Source: Archivesica marissinica (lineage: Eukaryota > Mollusca > Bivalvia > Venerida > Vesicomyidae). From it: a stretch of 64,000 bases of DNA. The stretch lies in the NCBI GenBank assembly GCA_014843695.1, contig CM026397.1, positions 40,386,651-40,450,650 on the forward strand, read 5' to 3'. The notes below the pieces were generated by a model. That model made no database searches. It saw only the letters and a program-made list of their open reading frames with translations, and was not told the DNA's origin. The stretch's first letter is position 1; each line of letters begins with the position of its first letter. Of this stretch, positions 20,102-63,971 are shown in pieces. Both the position numbers and the translations under genes were made by a program.

Positions 20102-20105
20102 TTAA

Positions 20106-23100
20106 CCCATTCAACCCCAAGTAACTGACATGGACTGGTGAGTTCAACCCCAAGTAACTGACATGGACGGGTGCATTCAACCCCAAGTAACTGACATGGA
20201 CTGGTGCATTCAACCCCAAGTAACTGACATGGACTGGTGCATTCAACCCCAAGTAACTGACATGTACTGGTGCATTCAACCCCAAGTAACTGACATGGAC
20301 TGGTGCATTCAACCCCAAGTAACTGACATGGACTGGTGCATTCAACCCCAAGTAACTGACATGTACTGGTGCATTCAACCCCAAGTAACTGACATGGACT
20401 GGTGCATTCAACCCCAAGTAACTGACATGTACTGGTGCATTCAAGTCCAAGTAACTGACATGGACTGGTGCATTCAACCCCAAGTAACTGACATGGACGG
20501 GTGCATTCAACCCCAAGTAACTGACATGGACTGGTGCATTCAACCCCAAGTAACTGACATGGACTGGTGCATTCAATCCAAGTACTGACATGGACGGGTG
20601 CATTCAACCCCAAGTAACTGACATGTACTGGTGCATTCAACCCCAAGTAACTGACATGGACGGTGCATTCAACCCCAAGTAACTGACATGGATGGGTGCA
20701 TTCAACCCCAAGTAACTGACATGTACTGGTGCATTCAACCCCAAGTAACTGACATGTACTGGTGCATTCAACCCCAAGTAGCTGACATGGACTGGTGCAT
20801 TCAACCCCAAGTAACTGACATGGACTGGTGCATTCAATCCCAAGTAACTGACATGGACTGGTGCATTCAACCCCAAGTAACTGACATGGACTGGTGCATT
20901 CAACCCCAAGTAACTGACATGGACGGGTGCATTCAACCCCAAGTAACTGACATGGACGGGTGCATTCAACCCCAAGTAACTGACATGGACTGGTGCATTC
21001 AACCCCAAGTAACTGACATGGACTGGTGCATTCAATCCCAAGTAACTGACATAGACGGGTGCATTCAACCCCAAGTAACTGACATGTACTGGTGCATTCA
21101 ACCCCAAGTAGCTGACATGGACGGGTGCATTCAACCCCAAGTAACTGACATGGATAGGTGCATTCAACCCCAAGTAACTGACATGGACTGGTGCATTCAA
21201 CCCCAAGTAACTGACATGGACTGGTGCATTCAACCCCAAGTAACTGACATGGACTGGTGCATTCAACCCCAAGTAACTGACATGGACTGGTGCATTCAAT
21301 CCCAAGTAACTGACATGGACTGGTGCATTCAACCCCAAGTAACTGACATGGACTGGTGCATTCAACCCCAAGTAACTGACTGGCTGACATGGACGGGTGC
21401 ATTCAACCCCAAGTAACTGACATGGACGGGTGCATTCAACCCCAAGTAGCTGACATGGACGGGTGCATTCAACCCCAAGTAACTGACATGGACGGGTGCA
21501 TTCAACCCCAAGTAACTGACATGGACTGGTGCATTCAACCCCAAGTAGCTGACATGGACTGGTGCATTCAACCCCAAGTAGCTGACATGGACGGGTGCAT
21601 TCAACCCCAAGTAGCTGACATGGACGGGTGCATTCAACCCCAAGTAACTGACATGGACTGGTGCATTCAACCCCAAGTAACTGACATGGACTGGTGCATT
21701 CAATCCCAAGTAACTGACATAGACGGGTGCATTCAACCCCAAGTAACTGACATGGACTGGTGCATTCAACCCCAAGTAACTGACATGGACTGGTGCATTT
21801 AACACCAACTAACTGACATGGACGGGTGCATTCAACCCCAAGTAGCTGACATGGACTGGTGCATTCAACCCCAAGTAGCTGACATGGACGGGTGCATTCA
21901 ACCCCAAGTAACTGACATGGACGGGTGCATTCAACCCCAAGTAACTGACATGTACTGGTGCATTCAACCCCAAGTAACTGACATGTACTGGTGCATTCAA
22001 CCCCAAGTAGCTGACATGGATGGGTGCATTCAACCCAAAGTAACTGACATGGACTGGTGCATTCAACCCCAAGTAACTGACATGGACGGGTGAGTTCAAC
22101 CCCAAGTAACTGACATGGACTGGTGCATTCAACCCCAAGTAACTGACATGGACTGGTGCATTCAACCCCAAGTAACTGACATGTACTGGTGCATTCAAGT
22201 CCAAGTAACTGACATGGACTGGTGCATTCAACCCCAAGTAACTGACATGGACGGGTGCATTCAACCCCAAGTAACTGACATGTACTGGTGCATTCAAGTC
22301 CAAGTAACTGACATGTACTGGTGCATTCAACCCCAAGTAACTGACATGTACTGGTGCATTCAACCCCAAGTAACTGACATGTACTGGTGCATTCAACCCC
22401 AAGTAACTGACATGTACTGGTGCATTCAACCCCAAGTAACTGACATGTACTGGTGCATTCAAGTCCAAGTAACTGACATGGACTGGTGCATTCAACCCCA
22501 AGTAACTGACATGGACTGGTGCATTCAACCCCAAGTAACTGACATGTACTGGTGCATTCAACCCCAAGTAACTGACATGTACTGGTGCATTCAAGTCCAA
22601 GTAACTGACATGGACGGGTGCATTCAACCCCAAGTAACTGACATGGACGGGTGCATTCAACCCCAAGTAACTGACATGGACTGGTGCATTCAACCCCAAG
22701 TAACTGACATGGACTGGTGCATTCAACCCCAAGTAACTGACATGGACTGGTGCATTCAATCCCAAGTAACTGACATAGACGGGTGCATTCAACCCCAAGT
22801 AACTGACATGTACTGGTGCATTCAACCCCAAGTAGCTGACATGGACGGGTGCATTCAACCCCAAGTAACTGACATGGATGGGTGCATTCAACCCCAAGTA
22901 ACTGACATGTACTGGTGCATTCAACCCCAAGTAACTGACATGTACTGGTGCATTCAACCCCAAGTAGCTGACATGGACTGGTGCATTCAACCCCATGTAA
23001 CTGACATGGACTGGTGCATTCAATCCCAAGTAACTGACATGGACTGGTGCATTCAACCCCAAGTAACTGACATGGACTGGTGCATTCAACCCCAAGTAAC

Positions 23101-23548
23101 TGACATGGACGGGTGCATTCAACCCCAAGTAACTGACATGGACGGGTGCATTCAACCCCAAGTAGCTGACATGGACGGGTGCATTCAACCCCAAGTAACT
23201 GACATGGACGGGTGCATTCAACCCCAAGTAACTGACATGGACTGGTGCATTCAACCCCAAGTAGCTGACATGGACTGGTGCATTCAACCCCAAGTAACTG
23301 ACATGGACGGGTGCATTCAACCCCAAGTAGCTGACATGGACGGGTGCATTCAACCCCAAGTACCTGACATGGACTGGTGCATTCAACCCCAAGTACCTGA
23401 CATGGACTGGTGCATTCAACCCCAAGTAGCTGACATGGACGGGTGCATTCAACCCCAAGTAACTGACATGGACTGGTGCATTCAACCCCAAGTAACTGAC
23501 ATGGAATGGTGCATTCAACCCCAAGTAACTGACATGGACTGGTGCATG
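20106..23548. repeat. Satellite C, contig 2 array (33 bp, about 104 units)
   Basis: The unit is GTAACTGACATGGACTGGTG plus CATTCAACCCCAA, 33 bp. Variant positions are shared with contig 3: GGACT/GGACG/GTACT, AACCCC/AAGTCC/AATCCC, GTAACT/GTAGCT, and a rare CATGTAACT at about 22,993. A shortened unit occurs at 20,575-20,590 and an 8-bp stutter at 21,375-21,390. The unit has no stop in several frames, so long frames on both strands are spurious. Confidence 0.97.
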
Positions 23549-23730
23549 ACATTTTTAGACCAATAAATTAATAAGAAAATTACCGTTGGACCAGATCATT
23601 TATCAAAATGGGTAATTTTATCTAAAAATAGTAATAATTATTACTGGCAAACAGTGCAGATCCTGATGAGATGGCTCATCTTGATCTACACTTTTTTAAG
23701 TCTATTTAGAAGCCTGTAGTGTTGAAAGGG
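20106..23730 (+). mobile_element. MITE-P copy with about 104 tandem subterminal repeats
   Basis: TTAA (20,102-20,105) is followed by CCCATTCAACCCCAAGTAAC and then the 33-bp satellite to about 23,548. Next comes the ordinary MITE-P interior: ATTTTTAGACCAATAAATTA, ACCAGATCATTTATCAAAAT, and AGATCCTGATGAGATGGCTC with its inverse arm. It ends with GTAGTGTTGAAAGGG and TTAA (23,731-23,734). Both termini and both TTAA sites are present, so the 3.4-kb array is internal to a single MITE. A solo copy is about 234 bp. Confidence 0.87.
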
Positions 23731-23734
23731 TTAA

Positions 23735-24545: not shown

Positions 24546-24637
24546 TCCCCACTTCTCCTTAAAATTATTATGTTATATATGTGTATCTATCTTACTTGGA
24601 GACATATACGGGCTACATCCTGTCCCTTTTCCATTAA

Positions 24638-25072
24638 CCCTTCCACAGACCTCTAAATAGGCTTACAAAAAGTGTAGAGATACTAATAGTAATATATTTA
24701 GAGAAAATTACCCATTTTCATCAATGAACTGGTCCAAATGTAATTTTCTTATTAGTCGATTCCGAAACAAGTGCTTACAACTTAATATTAATCACTCTCG
24801 AGACCTCATTCCTGATGGAGAAGAGGCAATGTGGAATATAAATGCCTTGCCCAAGGTTCAAATGTAATTTTCTTATTAATTTATTGGTCTAAAAATATCA
24901 TGCACCAGTCCATATCAGTTACTTGGTGTTGAATGCACCAGTCCATGTCAGTTACTTGGTGTTGAATGCACCAGTCCATGTCAGTTACTTGGTGTTGAAT
25001 GCACCAGTCCATGTCAGTTACTTGGTGTTGAATGCACCAGTCCATGTCAGTTACTTGGTGTTGAATGTTCAA
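24638..25072 (-). mobile_element. MITE-P copy with five subterminal repeats and a SINE insertion
   Basis: TTAA (24,634-24,637) is followed by CCCTTCCACAGACCTCTAAA. The hairpin region is mostly deleted. After the AT-rich block come five 33-bp units (about 24,899-25,069) that contain GGTGTTGAATG rather than GGGGTTGAATG. The right terminus GGGTTAA is lost. A 104-bp SINE-A piece interrupts it at 24,755-24,858. This is the intermediate copy-number stage between solo and satellite forms. Confidence 0.83.
24755..24858 (-). mobile_element. Truncated SINE-A with 20-bp target duplication inside MITE-P
   Basis: Contains the SINE-A tail and body (ATTCCGAAACAAGTGCTTAC through ATGCCTTGCCCAAGG) but no tRNA-like head, so it is 5'-truncated. 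CAAATGTAATTTTCTTATTA occurs on both sides (24,735-24,754 and 24,859-24,878). Solo MITE-P copies have that segment once, which confirms it as a target duplication. Confidence 0.9.
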
Positions 25073-25351
25073 TGAATGTATAAAGATGAGGATGTGAAGG
25101 CTTTCATTTAAAATGAATCAATTAGGTAGAGATTTGCTTTCCCGACTACTCAATAGACCGGTTTGTTTGTACACAGCAACCATTTCTGGCCATTCACATT
25201 GATTTTGTATCCAGATTCTCCTAAGCTGTACATACAGTTTGCATGCAATTAAATATGAAATAAAGCTGTCCAATCAATGCATCATTGATCATCTCGGTAC
25301 CTTTCTGCTTCTTTTGCTAATACCATAGATATGGTACTTTTGCTTAATTTA

Positions 25352-25583
25352 TACAAATTTATTTTTAGCTCGATTGCGAAACAAGTTATTACAACTTATA
25401 TTAATCACTCTGGAGACCTCATTACCGATGGAATCCATCGCAACGATGGAGATAGGAGAGGCAACATGGAATTTAAATGTCTTGCCTAAGGGCACAATCG
25501 TAACGGCTCTAGCGGGGCTCAAACTCCAGACCTTTCGCACCTGAAGCAAACGCGCATCCACTGCGCTATCACGACTTCCACTT
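25352..25583 (-). mobile_element. SINE-A copy, full length
   Basis: All modules are present: the inverse tail TTTATACAAATTTATTTTTA, CGATTGCGAAACAAG, GGAATCCATCGCAACGATGG, GGAATTTAAATGTCTTGCC, inverse box B GGGGCTCAAACTCC and inverse box A CGCGCATCCACTGCGCTATC. No clear target duplication is visible. It is the best preserved copy outside arrays. Confidence 0.85.
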
Positions 25584-26351: not shown

Positions 26352-26550
26352 AATGTTGTTCCAAATTGTCCAGAGTTCGAACCCTGCTGGAGCCGTTACG
26401 ATTGTGTCCTTAGGCAAGGCATTTAAATTCCACATTGCCTCTTCTCTCTCCCTCGTGGCGATGGATTCCATCAGGAATGAGGTCTCGATAGTGATTAATA
26501 TAAGTTGTAAGAACTTGTTTCGCAATCGAGCTAAAATAAATTTGTATAAA
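26352..26550 (+). mobile_element. SINE-A copy, plus orientation, head truncated
   Basis: Begins at about box B (CCAGAGTTCGAACCCTGCTG), then GGAGCCGTTACGATTGTGTC, GGCATTTAAATTCCACATTG, GGAATGAGGTCTCGATAGTG, CGCAATCGAGCTAAAATAAA and TTTGTATAAAC. It is the only clear plus-strand SINE-A in the window. The box A part is missing. Confidence 0.85.
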
Positions 26551-26593
26551 CTAACCAGACGTTGTTGTACGATAGAAGTAAGTCGATCATAAT

Positions 26594-30401: not shown

Positions 30402-30460
30402 TTTAGTTTATACAAATATATTTTAGCTTGATTGCGAAACAAGTTCTTACAACTTATATT
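30402..30460 (-). mobile_element. SINE-A tail fragment at the edge of array F
   Basis: Only the 3' tail remains: AGTTTATACAAATATATTTT, AGCTTGATTGCGAAACAAG, TTCTTACAACTTATATTTAA. Where the body should continue, the first unit of the 119-bp array begins, so the SINE is cut at the array boundary. Confidence 0.75.
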
Positions 30461-30469
30461 TAACCCTTT

Positions 30470-32937
30470 CCTTCATGGAGACTTAGGTTAATAACTTAAT
30501 ATACTATTTTATCTCCATACAAACTACAGCCATTTAGCTATCATGCAGTGGATAAGTAGTCGCCATATCTATCCCACCTCCATAGATATTACTGGGACTA
30601 CATAGAGATTTAGGTTAATATACTATTATATCTCCATACAAACGACAGCCATTTAGCTATCATGCAGTGGATAAGTAGTCGCCATATCTATCCCACCTCC
30701 ATAGATATTACTGGGACTACATAGAGATTTAGGTTAATATACTATTATATCTCCATACAAACGACAGCCATTTAGCTATCATGCAGTGGATAAGTAGTCG
30801 CCATCTATCCCACCTCCATAGATATTACTGGGACTACATAGAGATTTAGGTTAATATACTATTATATATCCATACAAACGACAGCCATTTAGCTATCATG
30901 CAGTGGATAAGTAGTCGCCATCTATCCCACCTCCATAGATATTACTGGGACTACATAGAGATTTAGGTTAATATACTATTATATCTCCATACAAACGACA
31001 GCCATTTAGCTATCATGCAGTGGATAAGTAGTCGCCATCTATCCCACCTCCATAGATATTACTGGGACTACATAGAGATTTAGGTTAATATACTATTATA
31101 TCTCCATACAAACGACAGCCATTTAGCTATCATGCAGTGGATAAGTAGTCGCCATCTATCCCACCTCCATAGATATTACTGGGACTACATAGAGATTTAG
31201 CTTAATATACTATTATATCTCCATACAAACAACAGCCATTTAGCTATCATGCAGTGGATAAGTAGTCGTCATATATATCCCACCTCCATAGATATTACTG
31301 GGACTACATAGAGATTTAGGTTAATATACTATTATATCTCCATACAAACAACAGCCATTTAGCTATCATACAAACGACAGCCATTTAGCTATCATGCAGT
31401 GGATAAGTAGTCGCCATATCTATCCTACCTCCATAGATATTACTGGGACTACATAGAGATTTAGCTTAATATACTATTATATCTCCATACAAACTACAGC
31501 CATTTAGCTATCATGCAGTGGATAAGTAGTCGTCATATCTATCCCACCTCCATAGATATTACTGGGACTACATAGAGATTTAGGTTAATATACTATTATA
31601 TCTCCATACAAACAACAGCCATTTAGCTATCATGCAGTGGATAAGTAGTCGTCATATCTATCCCACCTCCATAGATATTACTGGGACTACATAGAGATTT
31701 AGGTTAATATACTATTATATCTCCATACAAACAACAGCCATTTAGCTATCATACAAACGACAGCCATTTAGCTATCATGCAGTGGATAAGTAGTCGCCAT
31801 ATCTATCCTACCTCCATAGATATTACTGGGACTACATAGAGATTTAGCTTAATATACTATTATATCTCCATACAAACAACAGCCATTTAGCTATCATGCA
31901 GTGGATAAGTAGTCGCCATATCTATCCCACCTCCATAGATATTACTGGGACTACATAGAGATTTAGGTTAATATACTATTATATTTCCATACAAACGACA
32001 GCCATTTAGCTATCATGCAGTGGATAAGTAGTCGCCATATCTATCCCACCTCCATAGATATTACTGGGACTACATAGAGATTTAGGTTAATATACTATTA
32101 TATCTCCATACAAACGACAGCCATTTAGCTATCATGCAGTGGATAAGTAGTCGCCATATCTATCCCACCTCCATAGATATTACTGGGACTACATAGAGAT
32201 TTAGGTTAATATACTATTATATCTCCATACAAACGACAGCCATTTAGCTATCATGCAGTGGATAAGTAGTCGCCATATCTATCCCACCTCCATAGATATT
32301 ACTGGGACTACATAGAGATTTAGGTTAATATACTATTATATCTCCATACAAACGACAGCCATTTAGCTATCATGCAGTGGATAAGTAGTCGTCATATCTA
32401 TCCCACCTCCATAGATATTACTGGGACTACATAGAGATTTAGGTTAATATACTATTATATCTCCATACAAACAACAGCCATTTAGCTATCATACAAACGA
32501 CAGCCATTTAGCTATCATGCAGTGGATAAGTAGTCGCCATATCTATCCTACCTCCATAGATATTACTGGGACTACATAGAGATTTAGCTTAATATACTAT
32601 TATATCTCCATACAAACAACAGCCATTTAGCTATCATGCAGTGGATAAGTAGTCGCCATATCTATCCCACCTCCATAGATATTACTGGGACTACATAGAG
32701 ATTTAGGTTAATATACTATTATATTTCCATACAAACGACAGCCATTTAGCTATCATGCAGTGGATAAGTAGTCGCCATATCTATCCCACCTCCATAGATA
32801 TTACTGGGACTACATAGAGATTTAGGTTAATATACTATTATATCTCCATACAAACGACAGCCATTTAGCTATCATGCAGCGTATAAGTAGTCGCCATATC
32901 TATCCCACCTCCATAGATATTACTGGGACTACATGAG
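30470..32937. repeat. Array F: 119-bp tandem repeat (about 20 units)
   Basis: The unit runs from CATAGAGATTTAGGTTAATA through TACAAACGACAGCCATTTAG, CTATCATGCAGTGGATAAGT and AGTCGCCATATCTATCCCAC to GATATTACTGGGACTA. The period is 119 bp; several units at 30,720-31,190 are 117 bp after loss of AT from CCATATCT. Three units contain an extra 26-bp internal duplication near 31,365, 31,748 and 32,488. These are linked with GCTTAATATAC-type neighbours, which shows multi-unit blocks being copied. Confidence 0.95.
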
Positions 32938-33030
32938 ATTCTGCCTTTATTATGAACATTGGTTTCGCTACTACACTGTCAATGTATGTCGCATTGGTAA
33001 TGGCGCCAAGAGGTGCTTCTATGAGGAAAA

Positions 33031-33135
33031 GGGTTAATCACTCTCGAGACCTCATTCCTGATGGAATCCATCGCCATGAGTGAGAGAAGATGCGATGTGG
33101 AATTTAAATGCCTTGCCTACGGGCACAATCGTTTA
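33031..33135 (-). mobile_element. SINE-A body fragment
   Basis: TAATCACTCTCGAGACCTCA, TTCCTGATGGAATCCATCGC, GGAATTTAAATGCCTTGCC and GGGCACAATCGTTTA follow in family order. Both head and tail are missing. An 80-codon frame here is an accidental overlap. Confidence 0.8.
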
Positions 33136-33595: not shown

Positions 33596-33663
33596 TATTC
33601 AACTGACGGTCAAGCTCGGATTTTCTGACCACGTTGATGTAAAAAATGTTCAACCTTATTTAA

Positions 33664-33897
33664 CCCATTCAACACCAAGTAACTGACCTGGACTGGTGCA
33701 TCATATTTTTAGACCAATAAATTAATAAGAAAATTACATTTAGACCGGTTCATTTATCAAAATGGGTAATTTTTCTCTAAAAATAGTAATATTACTGGCA
33801 AAAAGTGCAGATCCTGATGAGACGGCTCGTCACGAGCCGGCTCATCTGGATCTACGCTTTTTGTACGCCTATTTAGAGGTCTGTGGTGTTGAAAGGG
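33664..33897 (+). mobile_element. MITE-P, solo 234-bp reference copy
   Basis: TTAA (33,660-33,663), then CCCATTCAACACCAAGTAAC, a single TGACCTGGACTGGTGCAT segment, and ATTTTTAGACCAATAAATTA. A central palindrome follows (AGATCCTGATGAGACGGCTC and GAGCCGGCTCATCTGGATCT). The end is CTGTGGTGTTGAAAGGG and TTAA (33,898-33,901). The terminal inverted repeat is CCC(A/T)TTCAACACCA, 14 bp. TTAA target sites with CCC/GGG ends are the hallmark of piggyBac-type transposition; there is no coding capacity. Confidence 0.88.
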
Positions 33898-33901
33898 TTA
33901 A

Positions 33902-34465: not shown

Positions 34466-34469
34466 TTAA

Positions 34470-36021
34470 CCCTTTCAACCCCACAGGCCTCTAAATAGGC
34501 TTATGAAAAGTGTAGATCCAGATGAGCCGGCTCGTAACGAGCCGTCTCATCAGGATCTGCACTTTTTTGCCAGTAATAATTATTACTATTTTTAGATAAA
34601 ATTACCCATTTTGATAAATGAACTGGTCCAAAGGTAATTTTCTTATTAATTTATTGGTCTGAAAATATCACGCACCAGTCCATGTCAGTTACTTGGGTTG
34701 AATGGGTTAATATCATGCACCAGTCCTTGTCAGTTACTTGGGTTTATGCACCAGTCCATGTCAGTTACTTGGGGTTGAATGCACCAGTCCATGTCAGTTA
34801 CTTGGGTTGAATGCACCAGTCCATGTCAGTTACTTGGGGTTGAATGCACCAGTCCATGTCAGTTACTTGGGGTTGAATGCACCAGTCCATGTCAGTTACT
34901 TGGGGTTGAATGGGTTAATATCATGCACCAGTCCATGTCAGTTACTTGGGGTTGAATGGGTTACTATCATGCACCAGTCCATGTCAGTTACTTGGGGTTG
35001 AATACCAGTCCATGTCAGTTACTTGGGGTTGAATGGGTTAATATCATGCACCAGTCCATGTCAGTTACTTGGGGTTGAATGGGTTAATATCATGCACCAG
35101 TCCATGTCAGTTACTTGGGGTTGAATGCACCAGTCCATGTCAGTTACTTGGGGTTGAATGCACCAGTCCATGTCAGTTACTTGGGGTTGAATGGGTAATA
35201 TCATGCACCAGTCCATGTCAGTTACTTGGGGTTGAATGCACCAGTCCATGTCAGTTACTTGGGGTTGAATGAACCAGTCCATGTCAGTTACTTGGGGTTG
35301 AATGGGTAATATCATGCACCAGTCCATGTCAGTTACTTGGGGTTGAATGGGTTAATATCATGCACCAGTCCATGTCAGTTACTTGGGTTGAATGGGTTAA
35401 TATCATGCACCAGTCCGTGTCAGTTACTTGGGGTTGAATGGGTTAATATCATGCACCAGTCCATGTCAGTTACTTGGGGTTGAATGGGTTAATATCATGC
35501 ACCAGTCCATGTCAGTTACTTGGGGTTGAATGGGTTAATATCATGCACCAGTCCATGTCAGTTACTTGGGTTGAATGCACCAGTCCATGTCAGTTACTTG
35601 GGGTTGAATGGGTTAATATCATGCACCAGTCCATGTCAGTTACTTGGGGTTGAATGGGTTAATATGCACCAGTGTCAGTTACTTGGGTTGAATGCAGTCC
35701 ATGTCAGTTACTTGGGGTTGAATGGGTTAATATCATGCACCAGTCCATGTCAGTTACTTGGGGTTGAATGGGTTCATGGTTAATATCATGCACCAGTCCA
35801 TGTCAGTTACTTGGGGTTGAATGGGTTAATATCATGCACCAGTCCAGTCCTTGGGTTGAATGGGTTAATATCATCAGTTACTTGGGGTTGAATGGGTTAA
35901 TATCATGCACCAGTTCATGTCAGTTACTTGGGGTTGAATGGGTTAATATCATGCACCAGTCCATGTCAGTTACTTGGGGTTGAATGCACCAGTCCATGTC
36001 AGTTACTTGGGGTTGAATGGG
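34470..36021 (-). mobile_element. MITE-P copy expanded with mixed 33- and 46-bp repeats
   Basis: TTAA (34,466-34,469), then CCCTTTCAACCCCACAGGCC, the hairpin and the AT-rich block to about 34,665. Roughly 35 repeats run to GGTTGAATGGG and TTAA (36,022-36,025). Two unit types alternate: the 33-bp type, and a 46-bp type (TATCATGCACCAGTCCATGT, CAGTTACTTGGGGTTGAATG, GGTTAA) that includes the complete element terminus with its TTAA. Several shortened units occur near 35,660-35,870. Confidence 0.87.
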
Positions 36022-36025
36022 TTAA

Positions 36026-38515: not shown

Positions 38516-38569
38516 CAATGACTATTATTTACATAGTAAGGGCCACAACTCCTTTGGTTGTTGGATTAA

Positions 38570-38787: not shown

Positions 38788-38958
38788 TTAATAACAAAGT
38801 GATTTTTGGGAGTGACTGTTTAATGTTAAATATTTACATAAATGGAAATCGATATTTTATGGGCATCAAAAAATCCCAGATTGGTAGATACTCATCTCTC
38901 TCCCTGGTTTCTGAGTTAAAAGAACACCAACATGTTGAAATAACAACAAAAAATTAAT

Positions 38959-41720: not shown

Positions 41721-41772
41721 GCATTGTGCAAAGTTTGGTTGAGCATAATACACAAAACAACATCATCAACAA
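41721..41772. other. Unique A-B junction, inverted copy
   Basis: Reverse complement of 12,438-12,492 without visible differences (GTGCAAAGTTTGGTTGAGC, CAAAACAACATCATCAACAA). It anchors the claim that contigs 1 and 2 end in the same locus. Confidence 0.9.
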
Positions 41773-50100: not shown

Positions 50101-53100
50101 TTACTTGGAGTTGAATGCACCAGTACATGTCAGTTACTTGGGGTTGAATGCACCAGTCCATGTCAGTTACTTGGGGTTGAATGCACCAGTACATGTCAGT
50201 TACTTGGGGTTGAATGCACCAGTACATGTCAGTTACTTGGGGTTGAATGCACCAGTACATGTCAGTTACTTGGACTTGAATGCACCAGTACATGTCAGTT
50301 ACTTGGGGTTGAATGCACCCGTCCATGTCAGTTACTTGGGGTTGAATGCACCAGTCCATGTCAGTTACTTGGACTTGAATGCACCAGTACATGTCAGTTA
50401 CTTGGGGTTGAATGCACCAGTCCATGTCAGTTACTTGGGGTTGAATGCACCAGTCCATGTCAGTTACTTGGGGTTGAACTCACCCGTCCATGTCAGTTAC
50501 TTGGGGTTGAATGCACCAGTCCATGTCAGTTACTTTGGGTTGAATGCACCCATCCATGTCAGCTACTTGGGGTTGAATGCACCAGTACATGTCAGTTACT
50601 TGGGGTTGAATGCACCAGTACATGTCAGTTACTTGGGGTTGAATGCACCCGTCCATGTCAGTTACTTGGGGTTGAATGCACCCGTCCATGTCAGCTACTT
50701 GGGGTTGAATGCACCAGTCCATGTCAGCTACTTGGGGTTGAATGCACCCGTCCATGTCAGTTACTTGGTGTTGAATGCACCAGTCCATGTCAGTTACTTG
50801 GGGTTGAATGCACCAGTCCATGTCAGTTACTTGGGGTTGAATGCACCCGTCTATGTCAGTTACTTGGGGTTGAATGCACCAGTCCATGTCAGTTACTTGG
50901 GGTTGAATGCACCAGTCCATGTCAGTTACTTGGGGTTGAATGCACCCGTCCATGTCAGTTACTTGGGGTTGAATGCACCCGTCCATGTCAGTTACTTGGA
51001 GTTGAATGCACCAGTCCATGTCAGTTACTTGGGGTTGAATGCACCAGTCCATGTCAGTTACTTGGACTTGAATGCACCAGTACATGTCAGTTACTTGGGG
51101 TTGAATGCACCCGTCCATGTCAGTCACTTGGGGTTGAATGCACCAGTCCATGTCAGTTACTTGGACTTGAATGCACCAGTACATGTCAGTTACTTGGGGT
51201 TGAATGCACCAGTCCATGTCAGTTACTTGGGGTTGAATGCACCAGTCCATGTCAGTTACTTGGGGTTGAATGCACCCGTCCATGTCAGTTACTTGGGGTT
51301 GAACTCACCCGTCCATGTCAGTTACTTGGGGTTGAATGCACCAGTCCATGTCAGTTACTTTGGGTTGAATGCACCCATCCATGTCAGCTACTTGGTGTTG
51401 AATGCACCAGTACATGTCAGTTACTTGGGGTTGAATGCACCAGTCCATGTCAGTTACTTGGGGTTGAATGCACCCGTCCATGTCAGTTACTTGGGGTTGA
51501 ATGCACCAGTCCATGTCAGTTACTTGGGGTTGAATGCACCAGTCCATGTCAGCTACTTGGGGTTGAATGCACCAGTCCATGTCAGTTACTTGGTGTTGAA
51601 TGCACCAGTCCATGTCAGTTACTTGGGGTTGAATGCACCAGTCCATGTCAGTTACTTGGGTTGAATGCACCGTCCATGTCAGTTACTTGGGGTTGAATGC
51701 ACCAGTCCATGTCAGTTACTTGGGGTTGAATGCACCAGTCCATGTCAGTTACTTGGGGTTGAATGCACCAGTCCATGTCAGTTACTTGGGGTTGAATGCA
51801 CCAGTCCATGTCAGTTACTTGGGGTTGAATGCACCAGTCCATGTCAGTTACTTGGGGTTGAATGCACCAGTCCATGTCAGTTACTTGGGGTTGAATGCAC
51901 CAGTCCATGTCAGTTACTTGGGGTTGAATGCACCAGTCCATGTCAGTTACTTGGGGTTGAATGCACCAGTCCATGTCAGTTACTTGGGGTTGAATGCACC
52001 AGTCCATGTCAGTTACTTGGGGTTGAATGCACCAGTACATGTCAGTTACTTGGGGTTGAATGCACCCGTCTATGTCAGTTACTTGGGATTGAATGCACCA
52101 GTCCATGTCAGTTACTTGGGGTTGAATGCACCAGTCCATGTCAGCTACTTGGGGTTGAATGCACCCGTCCATGTCAGTTACTTGGGGTTGAATGCACCCG
52201 TCCATGTCAGTTACTTGGGGTTGAATGCACCAGTCCATGTCAGTTACTTGGGGTTGAATGCACCAGTCCATGTCAGTTACTTGGGATTGAATGCACCAGT
52301 CCATGTCAGTTACATGGGGTTGAATGCACCAGTCCATGTCAGCTACTTGGGGTTGAATGCACCAGTACATGTCAGTTACTTGGGGTTGAATGCACCAGTA
52401 CATGTCAGTTACTTGGGGTTGAATGCACCCATCCATGTCAGTTACTTGGGGTTGAATGCACCCGTCCATGTCAGCTACTTGGGGTTGAATGCACCAGTAC
52501 ATGTCAGTTACTTGGGGTTGAATGCACCCGTCTATGTCAGTTACTTGGGATTGAATGCACCAGTCCATGTCAGTTACTTGGGGTTGAATGCACCAGTCCA
52601 TGTCAGTTACTTGGGGTTGAATGCACCAGTCCATGTCAGTTACTTGGGGTTGAATGCACCCGTCCATGTCAGTTACTTGGGGTTGAATGCACCAGTCCAT
52701 GTCAGTTACTTGGAGTTGAATGCACCAGTACATGTCAGTTACTTGGGGTTGAATGCACCAGTACATGTCAGTTACTTGGGGTTGAATGCACCAGTCCATG
52801 TCAGTTACTTGGGGTTGAATGCACCAGTCCATGTCAGTTACTTGGGGTTGAATGCACCAGTACATGTCAGTTACTTGGGGTTGAATGCACCAGTACATGT
52901 CAGTTACTTGGGGTTGAATGCACCAGTACATGTCAGTTACTTGGGGTTGAATGCACCAGTACATGTCAGTTACTTGGACTTGAATGCACCAGTACATGTC
53001 AGTTACTTGGGGTTGAATGCACCCGTCCATGTCAGTTACTTGGGGTTGAATGCACCAGTCCATGTCAGTTACTTGGACTTGAATGCACCAGTACATGTCA

Positions 53101-56100
53101 GTTACTTGGGGTTGAATGCACCAGTCCATGTCAGTTACTTGGGGTTGAATGCACCAGTCCATGTCAGTTACTTGGGGTTGAACTCACCCGTCCATGTCAG
53201 TTACTTGGGGTTGAATGCACCAGTCCATGTCAGTTACTTTGGGTTGAATGCACCCGTCCATGTCAGTTAGTTGGTGTTGAATGCACCAGTCCATGTCAGT
53301 TACTTGGGGTTGAATGCACCAGTCCATGTCAGTTACTTGGGGTTGAATGCACCCGTCTATGTCAGTTACTTGGGATTGAATGCACCAGTCCATGTCAGTT
53401 ACTTGGGGTTGAATGCACCAGTCCATGTCAGTTACTTGGGGTTGAATGCACCCGTCCATGTCAGCTACTTGGGGTTGAATGCACCCGTCCATGTCAGTTA
53501 CTTGGGGTTGAATGCACCAGTCCATGTCAGCTACTTGGGGTTGAATGCACCAGTCCATGTCAGTTACTTGGGGTTGAATGCACCCGTCCATGTCAGTTAC
53601 TTGGGGTTGAATGCACCCGTCCATGTCAGCTACTTGGGGTTGAATGCACCCGTCCATGTCAGTTACTTGGGGTTGAATGCACCCGTCCATGTCAGTTACT
53701 TGGGGTTGAATGCACCAGTCCATGTCAGTTACTTGGGGTTGAATGCACCAGTCCATGTCAGTTACTTGGGATTGAATGCACCAGTCCATGTCAGTTACAT
53801 GGGGTTGAATGCACCAGTCCATGTCAGCTACTTGGGGTTGAATGCACCAGTACATGTCAGTTACTTGGGGTTGAATGCACCAGTACATGTCAGTTACTTG
53901 GGGTTGAATGCACCCATCCATGTCAGTTACTTGGGGTTGAATGCACCCGTCCATGTCAGCTACTTGGGGTTGAATGCACCAGTACATGTCAGTTACTTGG
54001 GGTTGAATGCACCCGTCTATGTCAGTTACTTGGGATTGAATGCACCAGTCCATGTCAGTTACTTGGGGTTGAATGCACCAGTCCATGTCAGCTACTTGGG
54101 GTTGAATGCACCCGTCCATGTCAGTTACTTGGGGTTGAATGCACCCGTCCATGTCAGTTACTTGGGGTTGAATGCACCAGTCCATGTCAGTTACTTGGGG
54201 TTGAATGCACCAGTCCATGTCAGTTACTTGGGATTGAATGCACCAGTCCATGTCAGTTACATGGGGTTGAATGCACCAGTCCATGTCAGCTACTTGGGGT
54301 TGAATGCACCAGTACATGTCAGTTACTTGGGGTTGAATGCACCAGTACATGTCAGTTACTTGGGGTTGAATGCACCCATCCATGTCAGTTACTTGGGGTT
54401 GAATGCACCCGTCCATGTCAGCTACTTGGGGTTGAATGCACCAGTACATGTCAGTTACTTGGGGTTGAATGCACCCGTCTATGTCAGTTACTTGGGATTG
54501 AATGCACCAGTCCATGTCAGTTACTTGGGGTTGAATGCACCAGTCCATGTCAGTTACTTGGGGTTGAATGCACCAGTCCATGTCAGTTACTTGGGGTTGA
54601 ATGCACCCGTCCATGTCAGTTACTTGGGGTTGAATGCACCCGTCCATGTCAGTTACTTGGACTTGAATGCACCAGTACATGTCAGTTACTTGGGGTTGAA
54701 TGCACCAGTACATGTCAGTTACTTGGGGTTGAATGCACCAGTCCATGTCAGTTACTTGGGGTTGAATGCACCAGTCCATGTCAGTTACTTGGACTTGAAT
54801 GCACCAGTACATGTCAGTTACTTGGGGTTGAATGCACCAGTACATGTCAGTTACTTGGGGTTGAATGCACCAGTACATGTCAGTTACTTGGGGTTGAATG
54901 CACCAGTACATGTCAGTTACTTGGACTTGAATGCACCAGTACATGTCAGTTACTTGGGGTTGAATGCACCCGTCCATGTCAGTTACTTGGGGTTGAATGC
55001 ACCAGTCCATGTCAGTTACTTGGACTTGAATGCACCAGTACATGTCAGTTACTTGGGGTTGAATGCACCAGTCCATGTCAGTTACTTGGGGTTGAATGCA
55101 CCAGTCCATGTCAGTTACTTGGGGTTGAACTCACCCGTCCATGTCAGTTACTTGGGGTTGAATGCACCAGTCCATGTCAGTTACTTTGGGTTGAATGCAC
55201 CCGTCCATGTCAGTTAGTTGGTGTTGAATGCACCAGTCCATGTCAGTTACTTGGGGTTGAATGCACCAGTCCATGTCAGTTACTTGGGGTTGAATGCACC
55301 CGTCCATGTCAGTTACTTGGGGTTGAATGCACCAGTCCATGTCAGTTACTTGGGGTTGAATGCACCAGTCCATGTCAGTTACTTGGGGTTGAATGCACCC
55401 GTCCATGTCAGTTACTTGGGGTTGAATGCACCAGTCCATGTCAGTTACTTGGGGTTGAATGCACCAGTCCATGTCAGTTACTTGGGGTTGAATGCACCAG
55501 TCCATGTCAGTTACTTGGGGTTGAATGCACCAGTCCATGTCAGTTACTTGGGGTTGAATGCACCAGTCCATGTCAGTTACTTGGGGTTGAATGCACCAGT
55601 CCATGTCAGTTACTTGGGGTTGAATGCACCAGTCCATGTCAGTTACTTGGGGTTGAATGCACCAGTCCATGTCAGTTACTTGGGGTTGAATGCACCAGTC
55701 CATGTCAGTTACTTGGGGTTGAATGCACCAGTCCATGTCAGTTACTTGGGGTTGAATGCACCAGTCCATGTCAGTTACTTGGGGTTGAATGCACCAGTCC
55801 ATGTCAGTTACTTGGGGTTGAATGCACCAGTCCATGTCAGTTACTTGGGGTTGAATGCACCAGTCCATGTCAGTTACTTGGGGTTGAATGCACCAGTCCA
55901 TGTCAGTTACTTGGGGTTGAATGCACCAGTCCATGTCAGTTACTTGGGGTTGAATGCACCAGTCCATGTCAGTTACTTGGGGTTGAATGCACCAGTCCAT
56001 GTCAGTTACTTGGGGTTGAATGCACCAGTCCATGTCAGTTACTTGGGGTTGAATGCACCAGTCCATGTCAGTTACTTGGGGTTGAATGCACCAGTCCATG

Positions 56101-59100
56101 TCAGTTACTTGGGGTTGAATGCACCAGTCCATGTCAGTTACTTGGGGTTGAATGCACCAGTCCATGTCAGTTACTTGGGGTTGAATGCACCAGTCCATGT
56201 CAGTTACTTGGGGTTGAATGCACCAGTCCATGTCAGTTACTTGGGGTTGAATGCACCAGTACATGTCAGTTACTTGGGGTTGAATGCACCAGTCCATGTC
56301 AGTTACTTGGGGTTGAATGCACCAGTCCATGTCAGTTACTTGGGGTTGAATGCATCAGTCCATGTCAGTTACTTGGGGTTGAATGCACCAGTACATGTCA
56401 GTTACTTGGGGTTGAATGCATCAGTCCATGTCAGTTACTTGGGGTTGAATGCACCAGTCCATGTCAGTTACTTGGGGTTGAATGCACCAGTCCATGTCAG
56501 TTACTTGGGGTTGAATGCACCAGTCCATGTCAGTTACTTGGGGTTGAATGCACCAGTCCATGTCAGTTACTTGGGGTTGAATGCACCAGTCCATGTCAGT
56601 TACTTGGGGTTGAATGCACCAGTCCATGTCAGTTACTTGGGGTTGAATGCACCAGTCCATATCTGTTACTTGGGTTTGAATGCACCAGTCCATATCTGTT
56701 ACTTGGGGTTGAATGCACCAGTCCATATCTGTTACTTGGGGTTGAATGCACCAGTCCATATCTGTTACTTGGGGTTGAATGCACCAGTCCATATCAGTTA
56801 CTTGGGGTTGAATGTACCAGTCCATGTCAGTTACTTGGTGTTGAATGCACCAGTCCATTTCAGTTACTTGGGGTTGAATGCACTAGTCCATTTCAGTTAC
56901 TTGGGTTTGAATGCACCAGTCCATGTCAGTTACTTGGGGTTGAATGCACCAGTCCATGTCAGTTACTTGGGTTTGAATGTACCAGTCCATTTCAGTTACT
57001 TGGGTTTGAATGTACCAGTCCATATCAGTTACTTGGGGTTGAATGCATCAGTCCATGTCAGTTACTTGGGGTTGAATGCACCAGTCCATGTCAGTTACTT
57101 GGGTTTGAATGTACCAGTCCATGTCAGTTACTTGGGTTTGAATGCACCAGTCCATATCAGTTACCTGGGGTTGAATGTACCAGTCCATGTCAGTTACTCG
57201 GGGTTGAATGCATCAGTCCATGTCAGTTACTCGGGGTTGAATGCATCAGTCCATGTCAGTTACTTGGGGTTGAATGCACCATTCCATGTCAGTTACTTGG
57301 TGTTGAATGCACCAGTCCATGTCAGTTACTTGGGGTTGAATGCACCAGTCCATGTCAGTTACTTGGTGTTGAATGCACCAGTCCATGTCAGTTACTTGGG
57401 GTTGAATGCACCAGTCCATGTCAGTTACTTGGGGTTGAATGCACCAGTCCATGTCAGTTACTTGGGGTTGAATGCACCAGTCCATGTCAGTTACTTGGGG
57501 TTGAATGCACCAGTCCATGTCAGTTACTTGGGGTTGAATGCACCAGTCCATGTCAGTTACTTGGGGTTGAATGCACCAGTCCATGTCAGTTACTTGGGGT
57601 TGAATGCACCAGTCCATGTCAGTTACTTGGGGTTGAATGCACCAGTCCATGTCAGTTACTTGGGGTTGAATGCACCAGTCCATGTCAGTTACTTGGGGTT
57701 GAATGCACCAGTCCATGTCAGTTACTTGGACTTGAATGCACCAGTCCATGTCAGTTACTTGGGGTTGAATGCACCAGTCCATGTCAGTTACTTGGGGTTG
57801 AATGCACCAGTCCATGTCAGTTACTTGGGGTTGAATGCACCAGTCCATGTCAGTTACTTGGGGTTGAATGCACCAGTCCATGTCAGTTACTTGGGGTTGA
57901 ATGCACCAGTCCATGTCAGTTACTTGGGGTTGAATGCACCAGTCCATGTCAGTTACTTGGGGTTGAATGCACCAGTCCATGTCAGTTACTTGGGGTTGAA
58001 TGCACCAGTCCATGTCAGTTACTTGGGGTTGAATGCACCAGTCCATGTCAGTTACTTGGGGTTGAATGCACCCGTCCATGTCAGCTACTTGGGGTTGAAT
58101 GCACCAGTCCATGTCAGTACTTGGGGTTGATGTGTGTTTGGTTGATGCACCAGTCCATGTCAGTTACTTGGGGTTGAATGCACCAGTCCTGTCAGTTACT
58201 TGGGGTTGAATGCACCGTCCATGTCAGTTACTTGGGGTTGAATGCACCAGTCCATGTCAGTTACTTGGGGTTGAATGCACCAGTCCATGTCAGTTACTTG
58301 GGGTTGAATGCACCAGTCCATGTCAGTTACTTGGGGTTGAATGCACCAGTCCATGTCAGTTACTTGGGGTTGAATGCACCAGTCCATGTCAGTTACTTGG
58401 GGTTGAATGCACCAGTCATGTCAGTTACTTGGGGTTGAATGCACCAGTCCATGTCAGTTACTTGGGGTTGAATGCACCAGTCCATGTCAGTTACTTGGGG
58501 TTGAATGCACCAGTCCATGTCAGTTACTTGGGGTTGAATGCACCGTCCATGTCAGCTACTTGGGGTGAATGCACCAGTACATGTCAGTTACTTGGGGTTG
58601 AATGCACCAGTCTATGTCAGTTACTTGGGGTTGAATGCACCAGTCCATGTCAGTTACTTGGGGTTGAATGCACCAGTCCATGTCAGTTACTTGGGGTTGA
58701 ATGCACCAGTCCATGTCAGTTACTTGGGGTTGAATGCACCAGTCCATGTCAGTTACTTGGTGTTGAATGCACCAGTCCATGTCAGTTACTTGGTGTTGAA
58801 TGCACCAGTCCATGTCAGTTACTTGGGGTTGAATGCACCAGTCCATGTCAGTTACTTGGTGTTGAATGCACAAGTCCATGTCAGTTACTTGGTGTTGAAT
58901 GCACCAGTCCATGTCAGTTACTTGGTGTTGAATGCACCAGTCCATGTCAGTTACTTGGTGATGCACCAGTCCATGTCAGTTACTTGGGGTTGAATGCACC
59001 AGTCCATGTCAGTTACTTGGTGTTGAATGCACCAGTACATGTCAGTTACTTGGGGTTGAATGCACCAGTCCATGTCAGTTACTTGGTGTTGAATGCACCA

Positions 59101-62100
59101 GTCCATGTCAGTTACTTGGTGTTGAATGCACCAGTCCATGTCAGTTACTTGGTGTTGAATGCACCAGTCCATGTCAGTTACTTGGGTTGAATGCACCAGT
59201 CCATGTCAGTTACTTGGGGTTGAATGCACCAGTCCATGTCAGTTACTTGGTGTTGAATGCACCAGTACATGTCAGTTACTTGGGGTTGAATGCACCAGTC
59301 CATGTCAGTTACTTGGGGTTGAATGCACCAGTACATGTCAGTTACTTGGGGTTGAATGCACCAGTCCATGTCAGTTACTTGGGGTTGAATGCACCAGTAC
59401 ATGTCAGTTACTTGGGGTTGAATGCACCAGTCCATGTCAGTTACTTGGGGTTGAATGCACCAGTACATGTCAGTTACTTGGGGTTGAATGCACCAGTACA
59501 TGTCAGTTACTTGGGGTTGAATGCACCAGTACATGTCAGTTACTTGGGGTTGAATGCACCGTCCATGTCAGTTACTTGGGGTGAATGCACCAGTCCATGT
59601 CAGTTTGAATGCACCAGTCATGTCAGTACTTGGGGTTGAATGCACCGTCCATGTCATTACTTGGGGTTGAATGCACCGTCCATGTCAGTTACTTGGGTTG
59701 AATCACCGTCCATGTCAGTTACTTGGGTGAATGCACCAGTCCATGTCAGTTACTTTGGGGTTGAATGCACCCGTCCATGTCAGTTAGTTGGTGTTGAATG
59801 CACCAGTCCATGTCAGTTACTTGGGGTTGAATGCACCAGTCCATGTCAGTTACTTGGGGTTGAATGCACCCGTCTATGTCAGTTACTTGGGATTGAATGC
59901 ACCAGTCCATGTCAGTTACTTGGGGTTGAATGCACCAGTCCATGTCAGTTACTTGGGGTTGAATGCACCCGTCCATGTCAGCTACTTGGGGTTGAATGCA
60001 CCCGTCCATGTCAGTTACTTGGGGTTGAATGCACCAGTCCATGTCAGCTACTTGGGGTTGAATGCACCAGTCCATGTCAGTTACTTGGGGTTGAATGCAC
60101 CCGTCCATGTCAGTTACTTGGGGTTGAATGCACCCGTCCATGTCAGCTACTTGGGGTTGAATGCACCCGTCCATGTCAGTTACTTGGGGTTGAATGCACC
60201 CGTCCATGTCAGTTACTTGGGGTTGAATGCACCAGTCCATGTCAGTTACTTGGGGTTGAATGCACCAGTCCATGTCAGTTACTTGGGATTGAATGCACCA
60301 GTCCATGTCAGTTACATGGGGTTGAATGCACCAGTCCATGTCAGCTACTTGGGGTTGAATGCACCAGTACATGTCAGTTACTTGGGGTTGAATGCACCAG
60401 TACATGTCAGTTACTTGGGGTTGAATGCACCCATCCATGTCAGTTACTTGGGGTTGAATGCACCCGTCCATGTCAGCTACTTGGGGTTGAATGCACCAGT
60501 ACATGTCAGTTACTTGGGGTTGAATGCACCCGTCTATGTCAGTTACTTGGGATTGAATGCACCAGTCCATGTCAGTTACTTGGGGTTGAATGCACCAGTC
60601 CATGTCAGCTACTTGGGGTTGAATGCACCAGTCCATGTCAGTTACTTGGGGTTGAATGCACCAGTCCATGTCAGTTACTTGGGGTTGAATGCACCAGTCC
60701 ATGTCAGTTACTTGGGGTTGAATGCACCAGTCCATGTCAGTTACTTGGGGTTGAATGCAACAGTCCATGTCAGTTACTTGGGGTTGAATGCACCAGTCCA
60801 TGTCAGTTACTTGGGGTTGAATGCACCAGTCCATGTCAGTTACTTGGGGTTGAATGCACCAGTCCATGTCAGTTACTTGGGGTTGAATGCACCAGTCCAT
60901 GTCAGTTACTTGGGGTTGAATGCACCAGTCCATGTCAGTTACTTGGGGTTGAATGCACCAGTCCATGTCAGTTACTTGGGGTTGAATGCACCAGTCCATG
61001 TCAGTTACTTGGGGTTGAATGCACCAGTCCATGTCAGTTACTTGGGGTTGAATGCACCAGTCCATGTCAGTTACTTGGGGTTGAATGCACCAGTCCATGT
61101 CAGTTACTTGGGGTTGAATGCACCAGTCCATGTCAGTTACTTGGGGTTGAATGCACCAGTCCATGTCAGTTACTTGGGGTTGAATGCACCAGTCCATGTC
61201 AGTTACTTGGGGTTGAATGCACCAGTCCATGTCAGTTACTTGGGGTTGAATGCACCAGTCCATGTCAGTTACTTGGGGTTGAATGCACCAGTCCATGTCA
61301 GTTACTTGGGGTTGAATGCACCAGTCCATGTCAGTTACTTGGGGTTGAATGCACCAGTCCATGTCAGTTACTTGGGGTTGAATGCACCAGTCCATGTCAG
61401 TTACTTGGGGTTGAATGCACCAGTCCATGTCAGTTACTTGGGGTTGAATGCACCAGTCCATGTCAGTTACTTGGGGTTGAATGCACCAGTCCATGTCAGT
61501 TACTTGGGGTTGAATGCACCAGTCCATGTCAGTTACTTGGGGTTGAATGCACCAGTCCATGTCAGTTACTTGGGGTTGAATGCACCAGTCCATGTCAGTT
61601 ACTTGGGGTTGAATGCACCAGTCCATGTCAGTTACTTGGGGTTGAATGCACCAGTCCATGTCAGTTACTTGGGGTTGAATGCACCAGTCCATGTCAGTTA
61701 CTTTGGGTTGAATGCAACCATCCATGTCAGCTACTTGGGGTTGAATGCACCAGTACATGTCAGTTACTTGGGGTTGAATGCACCAGTACATGTCAGTTAC
61801 TTGGGGTTGAATGCACCCGTCCATGTCAGTTACTTGGGGTTGAATGCACCCGTCCATGTCAGCTACTTGGGGTTGAATGCACCAGTCCATGTCAGCTACT
61901 TGGGGTTGAATGCACCCGTCCATGTCAGTTACTTGGTGTTGAATGCACCAGTCCATGTCAGTTACTTGGGGTTGAATGCACCAGTCCATGTCAGTTACTT
62001 GGGGTTGAATGCACCAGTCCATGTCAGTTACTTGGGGTTGAATGCACCAGTCCATGTCAGTTACTTGGGGTTGAATGCCCCCGTCCATGTCAGTTACTTG

Positions 62101-63498
62101 GGGTTGAATGCACCCGTCCATGTCAGTTACTTGGACTTGAATGCACCAGTACATGTCAGTTACTTGGGGTTGAATGCACCAGTCCATGTCAGTTACTTGG
62201 ACTTGAATGCACCAGTACATGTCAGTTACTTGGGGTTGAATGCACCCGTCCATGTCAGTCACTTGGGGTTGAATGCACCAGTCCATGTCAGTTACTTGGA
62301 CTTGAATGCACCAGTACATGTCAGTTACTTGGGGTTGAATGCACCAGTCCATGTCAGTTACTTGGGGTTGAATGCACCAGTCCATGTCAGTTACTTGGGG
62401 TTGAATGCACCAGTCCATGTCAGTTACTTGGGGTTGAACTCACCCGTCCATGTCAGTTACTTGGGGTTGAATGCACCAGTCCATGTCAGTTACTTTGGGT
62501 TGAATGCACCCATCCATGTCAGCTACTTGGTGTTGAATGCACCAGTACATGTCAGTTACTTGGGGTTGAATGCACCAGTACATGTCAGTTACTTGGGGTT
62601 GAATGCACCCGTCCATGTCAGTTACTTGGGGTTGAATGCACCCGTCCATGTCAGCTACTTGGGGTTGAATGCACCAGTCCATGTCAGCTACTTGGGGTTG
62701 AATGCACCCATCCATGTCAGTTAGTTGGTGTTGAATGCACCAGTCCATGTCAGTTACTTGGGGTTGAATGCACCAGTCCATGTCAGTTACTTGGGGTTGA
62801 ATGCACCCGTCTATGTCAGTTACTTGGGATTGAATGCACCAGTCCATGTCAGTTACTTGGGGTTGAATGCACCAGTCCATGTCAGTTACTTGGGGTTGAA
62901 TGCACCAGTCCATGTCAGTTACTTGGGGTTGAATGCCCCCGTCCATGTCAGTTACTTGGGGTTGAATGCACCCGTCCATGTCAGTTACTTGGACTTGAAT
63001 GCACCAGTACATGTCAGTTACTTGGGGTTGAATGCACCAGTCCATGTCAGTTACTTGGACTTGAATGCACCAGTACATGTCAGTTACTTGGGGTTGAATG
63101 CACCCGTCCATGTCAGTCACTTGGGGTTGAATGCACCAGTCCATGTCAGTTACTTGGACTTGAATGCACCAGTACATGTCAGTTACTTGGGGTTGAATGC
63201 ACCAGTCCATGTCAGTTACTTGGGGTTGAATGCACCAGTCCATGTCAGTTACTTGGGGTTGAATGCACCCGTCCATGTCAGTTACTTGGGGTTGAACTCA
63301 CCCGTCCATGTCAGCTACTTGGGGTTGAATGCACCAGTACATGTCAGTTACTTGGGGTTGAATGCACCAGTCCATGTCAGTTACTTGGGGTTGAATGCAC
63401 CAGTCCATGTCAGTTACTTGGGGTTGAATGCACCCATCCATGTCAGTTACTTGGGGTTGAACTCACCCGTCCATGTCAGCTACTTGGGGTTGAATGGG
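44148..63498 (-). mobile_element. MITE-P terminus expanded into 19.3 kb of satellite C
   Basis: About 586 units of 33 bp (TTGGGGTTGAATGCACCAGT plus CCATGTCAGTTAC) end at GGGGTTGAATGGG and TTAA (63,499-63,502), the intact MITE-P terminus. The opposite end of the element lies beyond the gap. Mixed-variant domains carry higher-order structure. Three blocks (about 55,290-56,330, 57,300-58,060 and 60,620-61,700) are almost pure single-variant repeats. Indel-rich units cluster at 46,620-47,000, 58,110-58,570 and 59,560-59,760. Long frames on both strands (up to about 2,170 codons) reflect the 33-bp period and are not genes. Confidence 0.93.
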
Positions 63499-63502
63499 TT
63501 AA

Positions 63503-63751
63503 TTGAACAACAATGGAACGATGTGCCAAGTTCTTATCATACAACAAGCTACAAGATGGTCTATAATGAAAACATTCCTACACCTTTGTTTGCCAAGGGG
63601 GCATTATATGGTTTTGTAACCGTAATGCTGTATAAACACTGTTTACATGTAAACCTATCCTTATCAAGGTTCCTATCTTTGTTCAGCTTAAATCTGATGA
63701 TAAATAGCACTCCTTTGTGTCAATAAAATCAACAAATCAATACACTTGACT
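63503..63751. other. Unique spacer, inverse of 19,853-20,101
   Basis: Contains the inverse of the contig 2 spacer (CACTGTTTACATGTAAACC, CCTACACCTTTGTTTGCCAA) and sits between the same two MITE-P copies in the same relative order. No gene signal is present. Confidence 0.85.
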
Positions 63752-63755
63752 TTAA

Positions 63756-63971
63756 CCCATTCAACACCAAGTAACTGACATGGACTGGTGCATCATATTT
63801 TCAGACCAATACATTAATAAGAAAATTACATTTGGACCAGTTCATTTATCAAAATGGGTACTTTTGGTCTAAAAATAGTAATATTACTGACAAAAAGTGC
63901 AGATCCTGATGAGATCCCTCTGGGTCTACACTTTTTGTAAGCCTACTGAGAGGCCTGTGGTGTTGAAGGTT
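63756..63971 (+). mobile_element. MITE-P copy, counterpart of 19,615-19,848
   Basis: TTAA (63,752-63,755), CCCATTCAACACCAAGTAAC, one 33-bp segment, AGATCCTGATGAGATCCCTC and GGGTCTACAC. It has the same degraded far end (GTGGTGTTGAAGGTTTTGTAG) as the contig 2 copy. The hairpin differs: contig 2 has GCCGGCTCGTGACGAGTCGT where this copy has a short AGAGGGATCTC loop on the matching strand. The two are therefore homologous but not identical. Confidence 0.85.

Follow-up and report, generated by a model that had tools for sequence, protein, structure and literature searches.

In a 64,000-nucleotide stretch of the genome of the vesicomyid bivalve Archivesica marissinica (contig CM026397.1, positions 40,386,651 to 40,450,650; hereafter the window), we describe a miniature inverted-repeat transposable element (MITE), MITE-P, that very probably acts as a satellite seed: one end would be duplicated via microhomology, and the resulting array would grow by unequal exchange and be dispersed with the termini of the element intact. 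The present study shows that tandem duplications of the near end, in units of 33, 46 or 47 bp, lie between the body of MITE-P and its terminus, and that the outer terminus and its TTAA often survive. The beginnings of satellite DNA are rarely observed. In the present case, a single genome offers a graded series (1, 2, 3, 4, 5, and 11 or more units) in insertions that mostly keep their ends, and the unit boundaries are precise enough for testing slippage against transposase-driven repair. Furthermore, the strong bias toward one end makes the question experimentally tractable.

A solo MITE-P is about 240 bp long, is bounded by TTAA, and has piggyBac-like ends. Its parts follow in the order TTAA, far end CCCTTTCAACACCA, long imperfect hairpin, AT-rich block, 33-bp segment (commonest form, ATGCACCAGTCCATGTCAGTTACTTGGTGTTGA), and near end ATGGGTTAA. 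The original prediction, made from the letters of the window, had given the termini as TTAA plus CCC(A/T)TTCAACACCA, with a hairpin and with the 33-bp segment inside the element; all of this was confirmed, and the 242-nt strand of one solo copy (copy D) folds at a z-score of -11.6 against shuffles. Most of the near inverted repeat falls within the 33-bp unit; therefore, the amplified part is the transposon end itself. TTAA at both ends, a mark of piggyBac-type MITEs, is present in four of the six insertions in the window and in 36 of the 39 best-scoring genomic copies. PiggyBac-type MITEs have been defined by inverted termini of 12 to 19 bp with a CC(C/T)T motif (PMC2872659). The far end fits this motif, but the near end (CCCATTCAACACCA) reads CCCA, so that strictly only one end conforms; a piggyBac-like element, AmiPB4, is itself listed with CCCATT ends (PMC2872659). 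MITE-P does not fall in the Kolobok/T2 class, defined by a TTAA target and terminal AGGRR/RR (PMC6004289), as its termini are CCC. The element is short and has no coding capacity. The long open reading frames (ORFs) of the window fall in tandem arrays or gaps, and none of the four window ORFs in the domain scan scored above its Pfam cut-off. Genome-wide, there are 125 matches to the piggyBac-type transposase PF13843, many with open frames. A scan of IMG/VR with a 24-bp core gave 0 matches.

The window holds six MITE-P insertions (A to F) with 1, 104, 5, 1, 34, and 1 units, respectively. The original prediction had counted eight copies with 1 to 586 units; its counts of 104, 586, and five units stand, but one overlap had been counted twice. 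Positions 19586-20167 are the reverse complement of 63437-64000, and therefore the copy at 19615 is that at 63752 and the array at 20102 is that at 44148-63502. Copy A (19615-19852, plus strand; 63752-63971, minus strand, in the next contig) has one unit, an intact right terminus, GGGTTAA, and no left TTAA. Copy B (20102-23734, minus strand) has TTAA at both ends and, as foreseen, 104 full 33-bp units at its near terminus (20106-23549). In the next contig, the same locus (44148-63502, plus strand) carries 586 full units, which agrees with the count previously given for 44148-63498, and its last letters, 63496-63502, are the near terminus and TTAA. On the body side, this array breaks off at an N gap (43148-44147), so that its far end is not visible. 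Copy C (24634-25067, plus strand) has the five units expected, a nested insert resembling a short interspersed nuclear element (SINE) at about 24742-24854, and a lost near (right) terminus. Copies D (33660-33901, minus strand) and F (38566-38791, minus strand) are solo elements with TTAA on both sides. Thus, TTAA ends had been assigned to all copies and are found in B, D, E, and F, with A and C as exceptions. Copy E (34466-36025, plus strand) also has TTAA on both sides. Where about 35 units of 33 bp had been predicted from 34,470, we counted 34 by hand from the unit listing (the automatic parse stopped early in E and C), in a mixed array whose 46-bp units had been missed: 20 units include the element end by way of a linker, either ATGGGTTAATATC or a variant of it, and 14, of about 33 bp, have no linker. 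GGGTTAA occurs 17 times in copy E, 16 times within the array and once at its end.

The search of the assembly (1.54 Gb, 2,808 contigs; the window lies on C12) with 33664-33897 of copy D gave 2,902 first-look candidates. The best 40 were scored, leaving 39 without the window's own copy. Best-scoring matches to a solo query favor solo copies: 35 carry one unit, one carries two, two carry three, and one carries 11. TTAA is present on the left in 37 and on the right in 38 of them; the base after the right TTAA in those 38 (A 16, T 12, G 6, C 4) gives no clear signal. Another 19 copies were met by chance in fetched stretches, matches short of body position 185 being dropped (one, L029, is copy A again); 16 have one unit, one has four, and two have none that is recognizable.

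Array loci were approached from the other side, through 20 loci on C1 (L047-L051, L053-L067) taken in list order from two pattern searches, for which the first 100 rows were used; L052 was left out as a shortened version of L067, and L056 and L057, with a flank in common, may be the same locus. In 18 of the 20, the array follows immediately on a correctly oriented MITE body, which in some lacks its far part. As in other MITE-derived satellites, then, the unit derives from a MITE and the arrays sit in its copies, and support for the predicted passage from MITE to satellite extends beyond the window. Neither of the two outcomes named beforehand as refuting it, namely most arrays lacking MITE-P or the 33-bp segment falling outside the element, was seen in these C1 loci and best-scoring copies. 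Spaces of 31 to 167 bp left by the parser between body and array equal one to five units; those in L047, L048, L063, and L064 are divergent units or linker. The near terminus is lost in L048 and L049, and the TTAA is altered in L051.

The arrays are built from two kinds of unit. Besides the 33-bp unit, a second unit of 46/47 bp consists of the terminus, TTAA, and the body letters TATC or ATATC. In the whole assembly, 14,982 exact junctions were counted for the 46/47-bp unit and 9,087 for the 33-bp pattern, a rough ratio, as the two patterns are not equally strict and the latter misses variants common in copy B (CCCGTCC); both patterns reversed, as a chance control, gave 0 and 0 matches. The 46/47-bp unit is thus at least as common as the 33-bp unit. 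With patterns of matched form, there were 34,861 near-end and 93 far-end tandem junctions (backward controls, 134 and 7), a bias of about 375:1; these are counts of junctions, not of births, and long arrays are counted many times. At about 40 bp each, the near-end junctions amount by our arithmetic to about 1.4 Mb, or about 0.1% of the genome. The claim that expansion is always at the same end is therefore false in its strict form. Far-end tandems were grouped manually into 14 loci, among which a pair on C14 and a pair on C19, each about 70 kb apart with a unit common within the pair, may be duplicates. The largest far-end case, a mirror of the near end, is L073/L074 (C19:3496980-3498535), with dozens of 23-bp units that include TTAACCC.

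Taken together, these observations fit a sequence of steps in which a piggyBac-type transposase would move MITE-P and the first near-end duplication would be seeded by very short homologies. For the 33-bp unit, these would be the ATG found at both of its boundaries; for the 46/47-bp unit, the AA of TTAA would pair with a run of A in the body. Arrays would then enlarge by unequal exchange or block duplication, and array-bearing elements could transpose because their ends stay intact. Some arrays may later lose the terminus and become plain satellite. A 46-bp array might also be converted to 33-bp units if the 13 bp separating the ATG repeats were lost, and the two kinds of unit would then be linked.

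Several points weigh against this reading. PF13843 transposase genes are plentiful, but their link to the MITE-P termini is presumptive. The far end also expands, although far more rarely. Two of the 20 array loci on C1 leave the body out of view: L059 runs into an N gap, and the array of L061 is longer than the stretch fetched. The array lengths at copy B may be assembly products. Within the window, the bodies of B and E group as sisters (94.0% identity, support 95), and the two copies have a G-type unit in common. The T-type unit of the solo copies is also found in copy C, and the T-type ending TTGGTGTTGA recurs in 31 units of the long B array. The T-type unit of copy C, set beside the shared ancestry of B and E, means that the window alone shows two array births, possibly one with losses. 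Furthermore, copy D contains 101 microhomologies of at least 3 bp at 25- to 60-bp spacing (longest, 8 bp), among which the ATG pair ranks 26th; in copy F, it ranks 23rd of 93. The chance of a homology of at least 3 bp at one junction is P ~0.05, assuming equal base frequencies. The ATG pair is thus not special, and microhomology as the sole cause of end choice is unsupported. A short inverted repeat in the unit was also considered as a transposase site and set aside, its arms being only 5 bp.

The 46/47-bp unit stops at TTAA, which suggests that the element boundary has a role, via transposase cutting and faulty repair. It is accordingly possible, if doubtful, that the duplications are seeded by transposition itself: during cutting at TTAA, or abortive gap repair there, the near end would be copied inward and rejoined, the unit would start in the body and stop exactly at TTAA, and the bias would reflect asymmetric transposase binding. 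Such an origin is consistent with the linkers in 100 listed junction rows (six C1 loci, gaps of up to 10 bases), which read TTAA and then TATC, ATATC, or small variants, and with the repeated far-end unit, which by our reading of the rows includes TTAACCC in 11 of the 14 far-end loci. PiggyBac-family ends are, besides, asymmetric, and piggyBat has motif repeats at one end with about 44-bp spacing (PMC11707139). However, the 33-bp unit has no TTAA, several far-end units seem to take in host flank, and an identical fixed boundary would be expected if one or a few founders had spread by transposition.

It is rather unlikely that the large arrays in the window are assembly artefacts and that the numbers 104 and 586 are biologically meaningless, but the assembly at this locus calls for care. 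Two 1000-N gaps (13214-14213 and 43148-44147) split the window into three contigs. The middle one (14214-43147) apparently stands inverted, with ends that overlap both neighbors; a second inverted match joins 13132-13213 and 40770-40854, and one flip of the middle contig apparently accounts for both matches and makes it overlap both neighbors. Its inverted placement thus appears to be a scaffolding error producing false duplicates. The right overlap extends past the window end: 5,640 bp, reverse-complemented, end exactly at base 14214, where the middle contig starts and the other contig runs on beyond. Apart from array length, differences are confined to copy A (8 mismatches and 18 gap bases by megablast, 10 mismatches by blastn, 12 by MAFFT), the other approximately 5.4 kb being identical; the divergence between 19615-19852 and 63752-63971 suggests a polishing error in a repeat, or conversion. 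The left overlap is less clean. From an anchor at 12437, the identity extends 201 bp one way and 310 bp the other, beyond which the contigs differ in array length and also toward the contig end (57 mismatches on the 34-bp side). A 33-bp AT-rich array beside a 34-bp array, at 10108-13213 and again at 40770-43147, is apparently one locus in two contigs with unequal array lengths.

The arrays of 104 and 586 units represent one locus and have in common ordered runs of identical monomers up to 24 long, against a maximum of nine in 200 shuffles. An allelic length difference at copy B is weakened as an explanation, since the overlap is identical outside copy A and an unmerged contig overlap is simpler (near-identical alleles being a less likely alternative), and a real palindrome was rejected, since the inverted matches differ in the center, stop at contig ends, and are both explained by one flip. 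The unequal lengths of the same locus in two contigs, in both overlaps, are what an artefact would leave. Against this explanation, arrays of 2 to about 75 units with body and terminus occur at other loci, and ordered monomer-variant blocks are shared by both versions of the B array. In the short version, 61 of the 104 monomers lie in repeated runs at run length 6 (shuffle maximum, 7) and none in repeated runs of 8. In the long version, 272 of 587 monomers of at least 20 bp lie in repeated runs of 8 (200 shuffles: mean 0.57, maximum 18), with commonest block shifts of 142, 59, 198, and 83 monomers. Repeated blocks at these shifts show that growth was partly by block copying over about 2 to 6.5 kb, as unequal exchange predicts, unless they were made by the assembler.

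A single ancestral element might also have gained the duplication, with nearly all arrays its descendants by transposition. In that case, a successful lineage would suffice, with no special property of the end, and solo copies would never have had the duplication or would have contracted. The sister bodies and the shared G-type unit of B and E, the few kinds among the listed linkers, and the CCAGG unit pattern common to L009 (C12, 3 units) and L013 (C6, 11 units), which stand at different TTAA sites, agree with such a founder. We nevertheless consider it unlikely, as arrays are specific to subfamilies (the T-type units of copy C, the TATG linker of L039, the CCAGG unit of L009 and L013), as 33- and 46/47-bp boundaries both exist, and as there are arrays at the far end. 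Specifically, the two 46-bp units of L039 bear the TATG linker of its own subfamily; after its terminus stands TTAATATGA, and the AATATGA common to this and the body is microhomology in the flank or else the remnant of a third, truncated unit. The young, subfamily-specific arrays of L039 and of L009/L013 speak for repeated births and for arrays moving with the element, as the satellite-seed reading would have it. It is very unlikely, finally, that transposition chemistry at one end makes the satellite, each 46/47-bp unit being a complete right end plus TTAA; if so, an array would offer many usable ends, picking another end would reset its length, and the satellite would be mobile and self-trimming.

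The window also holds an unrelated TTAA element, Q (30460-33037, plus strand), with ends CCCTTTCCTTCAT and CCCTTTTCCTCAT and a subterminal array of 117/119/145-bp units that starts about 36 bp inside its left terminus. Q was inserted at TTAA in a SINE-like repeat, of which 15404-15562 is an unfilled relative; in the relatives at 15404, 25344, 26554, and 18927, TTAA stands once and unbroken at this site. A Q copy with a shorter array lies at about C12:40464763 (about 4363-5369 of L030), about 14 kb past the window end. The SINE-like family comprises 15404-15642, 25344-25581, 26368-26554, and 18927-19098. ARAGORN reports a tRNA-Leu(CAG) at 15566-15636 on the minus strand within the first of these, and a 47-bp tandem array (19119-19535) beside the last is perhaps derived from its tRNA-like part.

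MITE-born satellites, those from TTAA elements included, are already known. The original prediction had taken a TTAA-type MITE in this role as the novelty; this is not new, as Xmix/Xstir of Xenopus, a T2 MITE of the Kolobok class, is a TTAA MITE (PMC6004289). Like MITE-P, Xmix/Xstir has a TTAA target and an amplified internal segment that became a large tandem family; MITE, array, and composite forms are described (PMC6004289; PMC12628747), and one table lists the source of Xstir as the terminal inverted repeat (PMC9659126). It differs from MITE-P in its AGGRR ends, as opposed to CCC, and the available text describes no terminus-plus-TTAA unit for it. In the miDNA4 MITE of Xenopus, a single monomer or a variable array lies in one MITE, and a microhomology model has been proposed (PMC12628747); in contrast to MITE-P, miDNA4 belongs to Tc1/mariner, and its repeat is thought to have been captured and not to come from its own end (PMC12628747).

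The carriers differ in the oyster Crassostrea gigas, where they are Helentron elements. The Helentron class is not known to make a TTAA duplication. The likeness to MITE-P lies in satellite-like arrays on mobile elements, dispersed through the genome (PMC7492417). Closer in class, the piggyBac-like CMITE of Acropora corals has TTAA sites, CCC-type ends, and tandem arrays (PMC2872659), but there whole elements stand in tandem, whereas in MITE-P it is one end; the same paper mentions earlier observations of arrays made of part of a piggyBac-MITE, citing the Xenopus Xmix/Xstir work. The piggyBac-family mPok elements of Daphnia are TTAA MITEs as well, and about 23% of them occupy the TTAA next to another Pokey or mPok, an arrangement termed tandem by the authors (PMC3849761); these are neighboring whole insertions and not an array at one end. 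The left end of piggyBat, a piggyBac relative, resembles MITE-P in its one-ended, repeated subterminal motifs. It differs in that these are three transposase-bound motif pairs, array growth not being described in the part of the source available (PMC11707139). A terminus-containing unit of the MITE-P kind was not found in the literature searched, which leaves most subscription journals outside, and a text search of the literature for the letters of the unit found none. Set beside these systems, MITE-P looks new, within that literature, in its bias to one end, its terminus-containing unit, and its scale, whereas the birth of a satellite from a MITE has its precedents in Xstir/Xmix and miDNA4.

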